From Nitrospirota bacterium (GTDB taxonomy: Bacteria > Nitrospirota > Thermodesulfovibrionia > Thermodesulfovibrionales > JdFR-88): a DNA stretch of 49,044 nt. Location: the NCBI GenBank assembly GCA_021813765.1, contig JAKAJM010000013.1:1-49044 (forward strand). The letters run 5' to 3'. Position 1 is the stretch's first letter; each line of letters begins with the position of its first letter. Positions 12,018 to 25,740 of this stretch are shown here, one piece after another. A program made the position numbers and the translations under genes. Below the pieces are notes generated by a model. It made no database searches. It was not told where the DNA came from and saw nothing but the letters and a program-made list of their open reading frames with translations.

Positions 12018-13142
12018 TTACTCGCAGATTACGTACGGCCTGGCTTTTTCGAGCCTTTTGCCTTTGAGGCCCAGGGCTTCAAGCCGCCTTACCGGCCCTT
12101 CCCTCCGCAGGCTGATTATCCGCGCGGCAGTCTGCGGTCCGAAGCCCGGCACCTTCAGCAGGTCCTCCCTGCAGGCCGAGTTTAATCTTACCGGGTAGAA
12201 CTCCGGGTGCATAGAGGCCCAGAGCTCCTTGGGGTCCTTCTCCAGGCTCAGGTTTCCGTCTGCGCCAAGGGGGATGTCCGCCTTGCCAAAACCGTACCGG
12301 CGCATCAGGAAATCCGCCTGATAGAGCCTGTGCTCGCGGGCAAACACGCTGTCCGGGCCTGAAACGCGCGCCTGCTCGCCGGGGATGGAAGGGCGGCCAA
12401 GGCCCCTCTGGTAGGCGGAAAAATACACGCGGTTGAACCGGAGCTTGTTATATATCCCGGACATGTACTCAATTATCTCGGAGTCCGTCTCGCCGGAGGC
12501 CCCAACGATGAACTGCGTTGTGCATTTCACCTTCCCTGCCCGGCCTCCCCGCGCCCGGAGCCCGGACATGAATTTCATCGGGCCTATGATGTCTTTCATG
12601 TAGTCTTTCCGGCCGGAAAGCAGGTCGAAACGCTTTTTGCCCGGGGCCTCTATGTTCAGGGAGACGGCGCTGGCAAGGGAAAAGGAATCCTCTATCGCCG
12701 CCTCCGAAGCCCCCGGGATCACCTTCAGGTGTATATAGCCCCTGAACTGGTGCTTGTGCCTGAGTATGCGCGCAACGGCGTTTATCCGGTCCATCGTGTT
12801 GTCCGGACTGCCTATGACCCCGGAGCTCAGGAAAAGACCGAACACCTTTCTGCGGCCCAGGTATTCCATGAAAACGCGGGCCACCTCATCCGGCTGAAGG
12901 GTGCAGCGCCTTATGTCCGTGTCCGAGCGCAGCGGGCAATACCCGCAGTCGTTCCGGCAGGCATTTGAAAGGAGGGTCTTAAGGAGCACCGAGTAGCCGC
13001 CCTGCGGCAGGGCGACCGGATAAAGCCACTTCCCCTCGAGTCCCCTTTTCCTGTGGTCTTCTTTTGCGGTGCCGCAGGAGCACGCGAGGTCGTACCTGGA
13101 ATCCTCAGACAGGACCCCAAGCTTTTGAAGCGTGTCCATCAT
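12018..13142 (-). CDS. radical SAM DNA modification/repair protein with helix-hairpin-helix (rSAM_link_UDG type)
   Basis: A 374-residue radical SAM protein. The cluster motif is CRNDCGYC (Cys62, Cys66, Cys69), and an extra CSC at residues 21-23 lies near the N-terminus. The C-terminal 60 residues form a helix-hairpin-helix DNA-binding segment (LLKVPGFGPQTAARIISLRR). This architecture matches the family called putative DNA modification/repair radical SAM protein, usually encoded near a uracil-DNA-glycosylase-like gene. No such partner is seen next to it here. The chemistry is not established. The start ATG overlaps the stop of the upstream SIMPL gene by ATGA, so the two are translationally coupled. 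The 3' side is followed by a T-rich tract with no gene before 11895. Confidence 0.85.
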   Translation of the reverse strand: MMDTLQKLGVLSEDSRYDLACSCGTAKEDHRKRGLEGKWLYPVALPQGGYSVLLKTLLSNACRNDCGYCPLRSDTDIRRCTLQPDEVARVFMEYLGRRKVFGLFLSSGVIGSPDNTMDRINAVARILRHKHQFRGYIHLKVIPGASEAAIEDSFSLASAVSLNIEAPGKKRFDLLSGRKDYMKDIIGPMKFMSGLRARGGRAGKVKCTTQFIVGASGETDSEIIEYMSGIYNKLRFNRVYFSAYQRGLGRPSIPGEQARVSGPDSVFAREHRLYQADFLMRRYGFGKADIPLGADGNLSLEKDPKELWASMHPEFYPVRLNSACREDLLKVPGFGPQTAARIISLRREGPVRRLEALGLKGKRLEKARPYVICE

Positions 13143-15100: not shown

Positions 15101-15114
15101 CGGAGGTGTGAGAG

Positions 15115-15708
15115 ATGGCCCAGGTGAAAACTGCCATAAAATGGGAAAGCGATCTGGCCGCCGCCATGGAGCGGGCGAAAAAGGAAGGCAAACCCATCTT
15201 CCATGATTTCTGGTTCGACGGCTGAATGGGCTGCGCTGCCATGAATGCGGGTCCGTATTCAGAGGAAAAAGTGCAGAGGTTCATCGGGGAGGAGTTCGTG
15301 CCCATAAAAAGCCAGTGCTTCTGGAAGGAGCGCACGGAGCTTATGAAACGCTTTGACGTCATCTGGACGCCCACCTTCCTCTTCCAGGACGCGGAGGGCA
15401 AGGTGCACAGAAAACTCTCCGGGTTCCTGCCCACCGGCGACTTCCTTGCCCAACTCAAGCTTGGCAAGGGCATGGTGCTTCTTGAGAAGGAGCGAAACGA
15501 AGAGGCCATAAAATGGCTCGAAAGGGCCGCAAAGGAGCATCCCGATTCGGGGGCGGCGCCTGAGGCCGTTTACTTTTTGGGGGTGGCCAGATACAAAAGC
15601 ACCCATGAGGCGGGCGCACTGAGAAACATATACGATACGCTTTTGATAAAGTACCCCGAAAGCGAGTGGACGCGCCGGGCCCAGCCATATTCGCAGATCC
15701 CCGGGTGA
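15115..15708 (+). CDS. selenocysteine-containing thioredoxin-fold protein with TPR-like C-terminus (UGA read-through at 15223-15225)
   Basis: ATG 15115 has GGAGG 8 nt upstream. The frame runs 36 codons (MAQVKTAIKWESDLAAAMER then KKEGKPIFHDFWFDG), meets TGA at 15223, and continues in frame for 160 codons to a normal TGA. The residue at 37 falls exactly where thioredoxins have the first Cys: DFWFDG-U37-M-G-C40, a UxxC form of CxxC. Further thioredoxin signs are the segment IWTPTFLFQ with the cis-Pro and the strand VHRKLSGFLP. Residues about 121-197 look like TPR helices (EEAIKWLERAAKEHPDS). A SECIS-like hairpin follows the UGA, and selB is in the same window. Likely a cytoplasmic redox enzyme. 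If the UGA were a sequencing error for TGC/TGT it would be an ordinary CxxC protein. Standard callers would start it wrongly at 15226. Confidence 0.88.
15243..15260 (+). promoter_or_regulatory. bacterial SECIS element
   Basis: Seven-base arms GAATGCG (15243-15249) and CGTATTC (15254-15260) pair fully, counting one G-U, around a GGTC tetraloop that starts with G-G/U. The stem begins 17 nt after the UGA. Bacterial SECIS elements bound by SelB have this geometry: a short stem about 16-37 nt downstream, inside the coding region, with a G near the 5' side of the apical loop. A weaker hairpin (15226-15242) lies between UGA and stem. Confidence 0.8.
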
Positions 15709-23850: not shown

Positions 23851-25740
23851 CTACTGAAGCCCTTTCAGCGGTTTTCGCGTGTCCCCGACGCGCATGGTAA
23901 ATTTATGGGAATCCAGATATTCAAGATAGGGCAGGGCGTATTTCCTTGTGGTGCCAAGGACGTCCCTGAACTCGGAGACAGCCATCTCCGGTTTTTTGGC
24001 GAAAAACCCCTTAAGCAGGGCGATCATCTTCTGGAAAACGGAGACGGGCAGATAAAGGGTCTCGTTTATTCTTACGATTGCGCCTTCCTTGTCCATGAGC
24101 CGGAGCACGTCCGTAAGCCTTTTTTCGTCCAGGGCCAGCTTTTTTGCCAGCTCGCTTTTCTCCGGAGGCTGAAACCCGGCGGCCTCAAGTTCCCTGATTA
24201 TCTTCCCCCTGAGCTGCTCGTCCTTGCCACTCAGGGCGGCCTGGAAAGAGGCCAGCCTCACGGAATCCTTCTCGGAGACAAGCTCGCGCACCAGGGGCAG
24301 CAGCCCGGAGAAGACCTTCTGGTCCGCCTTGAGCTCCGCCCTCAGCTCCTCTCTAGGTATGCCAGGCCGGAGCGGGTTTTTCCTGTGGAACTGACCGGCA
24401 ATGTCCATGGCTGCCTGTCTGAAGGCCAGAAAGGTGTTTGCATGAACGAAGGCGCCCTCGCCGGCAGGCAGTATCGCCTTTTCTTTCTGAAGCTCATCAA
24501 GCGCCCTGCCTACCTCCTTTACCTCCGCCCGTATCCACCCCTCAAGCTCCGCCCTGCTTATGGACTTGAGCGCGGAGCTCAGGATCTTCCTGGAGAGCTT
24601 TTCCTTCAGTGAGCCCTTTTCGTATATCTCCAGGTCTTCAAGCCCCATGCCTTTTTTTCTGCGGACGGGCCTGGGGTCAAGGACCGAGCCTCCGCCCATT
24701 GTCTCAAGCGGCGAGAGGCGGCGGATAACGAACCTGTCCATTCCCTGGGCCACAACCGGGCCGGTGAGCCTCACCTGGGCGTAAGAGGACTCCCCGCCCT
24801 TAAGCTCCTGCCTGTCGTAGAGGACAACCCTGGCCACCTTCTCCGAGGTGCCCAGATGGAAATGCACCCTGGCGCCGCTTTTTATGACAGGCGCGCCGGG
24901 CAAAAGCTCTATTTTCACATCCATGGCGGTGACAGGCTGGAACCTGCCCGGGCTTACCACCACATCCCCCCGCTCAAGCTCGTCCTTTTCAACCCCTTGA
25001 AGGTTGAGGGCCACCCTCTGCCCCGCAAACGCCTCTTTTACGGGCTTGCCGTGGCTTTGAATGCCCCTTATCCTGGTCTCGATCCCCTTGGGCAGTATCT
25101 GGACCTGCTCCTCGGCGCGCACCGTGCCTGAAAGGGCTGTGCCGGTGACTACCGTGCCAAACCCCTTCAGCGTAAAAACCCGGTCAACCGGAAGCCTGAA
25201 AAGCCCCCCGGTCTGCTTCTCCTTCACTTCAAGGGCTATCTCTTTTATCTTTTCCTTTAAAAGGTCTATGTTCAGCCCGGACCTGGCGGAAACCGGTATT
25301 ACCGGGGCCCCTTCAAGAAAGCTCCCCTTTACGAAATCCCTGGCCTCTCCGGCCACAAGCTCAAGCCAGTCCTTTTCAACCAGATCCGCCTTCGTAAGCG
25401 CCACCAGCCCCCTGCTTATCTTGAGGAGCTCGCAGATCTGCAGGTGCTCCCGGCTTTGGGGCATTATCCCCTCGTCCGCCGCGATCACTAGCAGCACGAT
25501 GTCTATCCCCCCGGCCCCGGCCAGCATGTTCCTGATGAGCCTTTCATGCCCGGGAACATCGACAATGCCCACCGTCAGGCCGGCCCCGGGATAGTCCAGG
25601 TTGGCAAAACCAAGGTCTATGGTTATGCCCCTTTCCTTCTCTTCCTTCAGCCTGTCGGGGTCCGTGCCGGTAAGCGCCTTCACAAGCGTGCTTTTGCCGT
25701 GGTCTATGTGCCCTGCTGTCCCTAAAACCACATAGCGCAT
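23851..25740 (-). CDS. selB: selenocysteine-specific elongation factor SelB
   Basis: A 629-residue translational GTPase that brings Sec-tRNA to in-frame UGA codons. The EF-Tu-like G domain starts [20 protein letters not shown] with G1 GHIDHGKS at 10-17, the switch [10 protein letters not shown] that is specific to SelB, DVPGHE and TKAD. Beta-barrel domains follow ([20 protein letters not shown]). The C-terminal third (about 380-629) is made of winged-helix domains that bind the SECIS hairpin, ending [18 protein letters not shown]. No selA, selD or selC was found in the window. It is encoded 197 bp upstream of fabG on the same strand. The presence of selB supports reading the UGA in the gene at 15115 as selenocysteine. 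Confidence 0.97.

Follow-up and report, generated by a model that had tools for sequence, protein, structure and literature searches.

A thioredoxin-like gene with a TPR-like tail from a Nitrospirota bacterium almost certainly encodes a UxxC selenoprotein

The DNA analysed here, referred to as the window, is a 49,044-nucleotide stretch of the Nitrospirota bacterium assembly GCA_021813765.1 (contig JAKAJM010000013.1, positions 1 to 49,044 of the forward strand), and the predicted selenoprotein gene lies on its plus strand at 15115-15708. If the in-frame UGA at codon 37 (15223-15225) is translated as selenocysteine, one open frame of 197 residues runs from 15115 to 15705 and the gene ends with the stop TGA, then TAA. 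The Shine-Dalgarno sequence GGAGGTG (15102-15108, plus strand) stands 6 nt 5' of ATG 15115. The predicted selenocysteine is the first residue of UMGC, within the motif DFWFDG-U-M-G-C-AAM, and the TGC at 15232-15234 supplies Cys40, the resolving cysteine of UxxC, which is invariant in alignments A1, A3 and A6. Re-reading the sequence bore out the original prediction on the frame, the UGA at codon 37, the UMGC motif and the ribosome-binding site. Under translation table 11, only a 160-aa ORF is called, from ATG 15226 immediately 3' of the UGA; a gene caller would therefore drop the N-terminus together with U37, which is the truncation and loss of the active site that had been anticipated.

The gene neighbours are a methyltransferase-like gene and recO on the opposite strand. 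The flanking genes are common only to close relatives and differ between families, and no conserved neighbour cluster was seen. Since the neighbours are not conserved, they do not indicate a pathway partner, and the gene seems to stand on its own as a cassette instead of belonging to a fixed operon. Elsewhere in the window, a radical SAM protein encoded on the minus strand at 12018-13139 is related to TIGR03916, a putative DNA modification/repair model, with a score below the cut-off.

A search of 199 relatives identified 21 further genomes whose full-length homologues, 30-80% identical, each have a TGA aligned to U37 within the frame; in shorter relatives that consist of the thioredoxin part only, a TGA occupies this position too. 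A class-wide search of 230 genomes, with E <= 1e-40 as the threshold for a full-length match, found such a match in 31 genomes including the window's own, and every one of these (31/31) has a single-TGA copy. The search of the phylum added further full-length homologues, one of them (G204) from another class. Altogether, with the window and G204, there are 32 full-length selenocysteine forms, each with one internal TGA in the same column. The recurrence of a single internal TGA at the same column in 31 other genomes is far beyond chance. Two loci returned by one genome search were discarded, one as a chance match to the TPR region and the other as a distant thioredoxin match, and plasmid records yielded nothing but distant thioredoxin-domain matches below 60% identity.

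The original prediction suggested looking for cysteine at the UGA position, and it was found in six full-length homologues, namely a second copy in the genome G084 (CPVC) and five proteins of the family f24 (CTGC), a lineage where selA and selB both went undetected, giving a selenocysteine to cysteine ratio of 32:6 among the full-length forms found. Cysteine also occupies this column in two stand-alone homologues (L028 and L032). Across selenocysteine and cysteine forms, W10, A17, F32, U/C37, C40, T85, P86 and G103 are invariant. The residue after the UGA varies among Met, Leu, Ala, Thr, Val, Ile and Gly, so the homologues do not all share a possible internal start at Met38. In pairwise comparisons, pN/pS-type ratios range over 0.0-0.31 upstream of the UGA, 0.07-0.27 downstream of it within the thioredoxin domain and 0.18-0.24 in the tail; all are well below 1, and coding constraint thus acts on both sides of the UGA. 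Thus the homologues read through the UGA instead of all ending before it, and the earlier proposal that coding and homology continue on both sides holds.

The family f16 has stand-alone thioredoxin-like proteins, about 110-130 aa in length (L025, L026, L027, L083 and L085), that also carry the in-frame TGA in this column, and three of them (L025-L027) have a hairpin where the fused forms have theirs. These stand-alone forms are probably of the known PF13098 UxxC selenoprotein kind. The cysteine paralogue in G084 (L059, 5111-5746) occurs in the same genome as a selenocysteine copy and has a very long branch.

Downstream of the UGA, a predicted bacterial SECIS hairpin, UGAAUGCG-GGUC-CGUAUUCA, spans 15242-15261 on the plus strand with a stem of 8 bp and its loop at 15250-15253. 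A SECIS-like hairpin had been proposed at 17 nt from the UGA; the hairpin is present, and its spacing is 16 nt, with the apical loop beginning 24 nt after the UGA. In the bSECIS model, 16-37 nt separate the UGA from the apical loop, there is a G in the first two loop positions, the stem has 4-16 bp and the energy is -7.5 kcal/mol or lower (PMC13188914). With its distance of 24 nt, its GGUC loop (RGKUNC) and its energy of -9.7 kcal/mol, the hairpin in the window fits this model. Shuffled versions of the single sequence fold almost as stably as its hairpin (z -1.05), several selenocysteine relatives miss the -7.5 kcal/mol limit and some cysteine homologues likewise give hairpins that pass the geometric test. 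Therefore, the geometric SECIS test alone is weak. No Rfam match reached gathering scores anywhere in the window.

The strong part of the case for the hairpin as a SECIS element is comparative. Among 13 close homologues, synonymous-codon identity at codons 44-50, which lie under the hairpin, is 0.87 against 0.37 expected, an excess of 0.50. When windows along the entire gene are ranked by this excess, each of the top ten overlaps codons 44-50, and outside codons 38-52 no window exceeds 0.19. In an alignment of 21 sequences, stand-alone forms included, the six-pair core of the stem is formed in 98.3% of cells and 10 cells show double changes at two of the pairs, A-U to G-C at one and U-A to A-U or G-U at the other. 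None of 500 shuffles scored as high on paired cells or on covariation, and all slid versions of the stem were far worse. In a deep clade (L021-L024), the hairpin is found in a shifted register, with a GGA-type loop lying 16-17 nt after the UGA rather than 24.

The gene for the selenocysteine-specific elongation factor, selB, is located in the window at 23854-25740 on the minus strand (TIGR00475, 360.7 bits against a cut-off of 242). Its distance from the selenoprotein gene, 8.1 kb, agrees with the 8 kb given in the original prediction. The window's genome also contains selA (600 bits), a tRNA-Sec (73 bits) and pieces of selD, so that selA, selC and selD are all represented. The pieces that match selD are spread over three contigs (C66, C59 and C8); two of them have an in-frame TGA, and at least one is cut by a contig end. 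The same genome encodes a formate dehydrogenase alpha subunit, FdhA (contig C89, 1621-3627), with one in-frame TGA; it belongs to a known kind of selenoprotein and is a further likely selenoprotein of this genome.

Beyond this genome, selA or selB scored above the cut-off in 24 of the 26 genomes with selenocysteine forms that were tested (selA in 21 and selB in three more). Neither gene reached the cut-off in the remaining two, G041 and G411, probably as a result of incomplete assemblies. Among the five genomes with f24 cysteine forms, selA and selB were above the cut-off in none. Since selA is also common in close relatives that do not have the selenoprotein gene, its presence alone says little, and the telling observation is its absence from f24.

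The N-terminal part of the protein, about residues 7-114 (15133-15456), is a thioredoxin_2/DsbD-gamma-like domain with UxxC at 37-40 and the cis-proline at 86. The single sequence matches Thioredoxin_2 (PF13098) in Pfam at 40.6 bits, above the cut-off of 27, and so do all 28 members of alignment A1. By profile comparison with the PDB, the closest solved structures are a putative disulfide isomerase and DsbD-gamma, the latter at an E-value of about 1e-15. About residues 115-197 (15457-15705) form a C-terminal helical, TPR-like region. For the single sequence the Pfam scores of this tail are below the cut-offs, whereas the family profile matches CpoB at 3e-12, designed and consensus TPR proteins in the PDB, and TPR_6 and TPR_16 in Pfam. 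The earlier assignment of a TPR-like C-terminus is thus upheld by profile matches that are weak for the single sequence and good for the family. AlphaFold2 run on the single sequence gave a pLDDT of 41 and no usable fold. The sequence shows no evident signal peptide, and from this we infer a cytoplasmic protein.

In an unrooted tree of 45 rows, selenocysteine forms dominate. A well supported branch sets the five f24 cysteine forms apart from the rest, and the cysteine copy of G084 sits on a long branch next to selenocysteine forms. The position of the hairpin is common to stand-alone and fused selenocysteine forms, which suggests a common origin of selenocysteine in both. The tree, being unrooted, is compatible with either the fusion or selenocysteine having come first.

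Taken together, the UGA at codon 37 almost certainly specifies the catalytic selenocysteine of a thioredoxin-like enzyme, and computation could hardly put the status of the gene as a selenoprotein gene on firmer ground. The 160-aa ORF called from ATG 15226 is what one would expect if the UGA were a real stop, a sequencing error or a pseudogene lesion and translation started internally. This explanation is very improbable: the same UGA occurs in 31 other genomes, Met38 is not conserved, the ratios are low on both sides, the SECIS region is conserved and homologues have cysteine at the same position. Pseudogene and sequencing error were rejected, because the comparison speaks strongly against them. 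That the UGA is read as tryptophan or another residue through a changed code or readthrough is scarcely credible; we found no point in its support. Homologues have cysteine and never tryptophan in the UGA column, the gene itself ends with TGA-TAA, FdhA has a single TGA and the selenocysteine machinery is present; an altered code was rejected on these grounds.

Two further explanations accept the selenoprotein and concern the role of its tail. TPR regions usually bind specific partners and many thioredoxin-like selenoproteins are dedicated electron donors. On this general background, the protein could be the redox helper of one specific partner, with the TPR-like tail docking, for instance, a peroxiredoxin or an enzyme that handles metal or sulfur; conserved neighbours do not identify such a partner, and we hold this possibility tentatively. 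It is more doubtful that the protein acts as a selenium-dependent chaperedoxin, in which the tail would hold oxidatively unfolded clients while the thioredoxin domain reduces or protects their cysteines before handover to GroEL or DnaK. The order of a thioredoxin domain followed by a TPR region, as in CnoX, and the cytoplasmic location suggested by the lack of an evident signal peptide are consistent with this role. Against it, an hhalign profile comparison shows little similarity to E. coli CnoX (probability 71, with 107 columns that comprise the thioredoxin core and a short stretch beyond it), the TPR part has about 80 residues whereas E. coli CnoX has 284 aa in all, the thioredoxin domain is nearer to DsbD-gamma and there is no conserved neighbour cluster. 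In an extended form of this reading, the chaperedoxin would have evolved separately from CnoX and would repair the thiols of oxidatively damaged clients as well as hold them; selenocysteine would be its usual residue, and most of the cysteine versions found come from a lineage where selA and selB were not detected. We consider this unlikely.

Our preferred reading, with a probability of about 0.85, is a cytoplasmic selenoprotein that acts as a UxxC thiol-disulfide oxidoreductase with a partner-docking TPR-like tail. The hairpin at 15242-15261 would direct SelB and selenocysteyl-tRNA to insert selenocysteine at the UGA (15223-15225), a reading with strong comparative support. As the fold suggests, the selenolate of U37 would then attack an oxidised partner, C40 would resolve the mixed selenenyl-sulfide and a thioredoxin-reductase-like system would recycle the oxidoreductase. 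The tail would bind a partner or an unfolded client and thereby give the oxidoreductase its specificity. A function as a cytoplasmic oxidoreductase whose tail docks partners or unfolded clients is likely, judging from the fold.

The protein brings to the bacterial selenoproteome a seemingly unlisted architecture, in a family where selenocysteine is commoner than cysteine among the full-length forms found. A model in the style of NCBIfam would rescue the genes whose N-terminus and attacking residue are lost in standard calling. The cysteine form in a family without detectable selenocysteine machinery offers a natural comparison of selenocysteine with cysteine, and the thioredoxin-TPR architecture makes a selenium-dependent chaperedoxin directly testable.

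The original prediction held that a thioredoxin-TPR protein with selenocysteine is not one of the common selenoprotein families. This agrees with the absence of any TPR-fused thioredoxin selenoprotein from the 119 entries of a 2026 selenoprotein catalogue and with NCBIfam release 20, in which no model reaches its cut-off. The NCBIfam thioredoxin-like selenoproteins TsoB, VPGUxxT and Trx7/PDZ share the thioredoxin-like domain at low score, and the protein in the window falls far below their cut-offs (38.9 of 805, 28.2 of 275 and 24.3 of 300, respectively). The best NCBIfam match is to DsbD (PRK00293, model positions 459-570), whose C-terminal (gamma) domain is also among the closest solved structures. 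However, the protein lacks the transmembrane and N-terminal DsbD domains as well as an evident signal peptide, and with 197 aa and a whole-protein score of 41.6 against a cut-off of 330 it does not have the three-domain membrane architecture. CnoX (YbbN), with a thioredoxin domain followed by a TPR domain and a redox-active form in Caulobacter (PMC6282202), shares the domain order. It differs in having a longer TPR part, a thioredoxin domain of another branch and cysteine or serine instead of selenocysteine at the first active-site position, and the alignment with it falls short of orthology over both domains. Because the thioredoxin domain is nearer to DsbD-gamma despite the CnoX-like architecture, we do not call the protein CnoX. 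The catalogue does list a generic family, "Thiol:disulfide interchange protein, PF13098, UxxC", with the representative WP_011366075.1; members have been described in Geobacter and Syntrophus, and a marine survey names the family Trx-like 2 (cd02953). Compared by catalogue description only, this family shares with the protein in the window a PF13098 domain above the cut-off and UxxC with selenocysteine first, and differs in that its entry has no TPR tail; the stand-alone UxxC relatives of about 110-130 aa look like that kind. The family described here and the catalogued PF13098 UxxC family may be the same or sister families.
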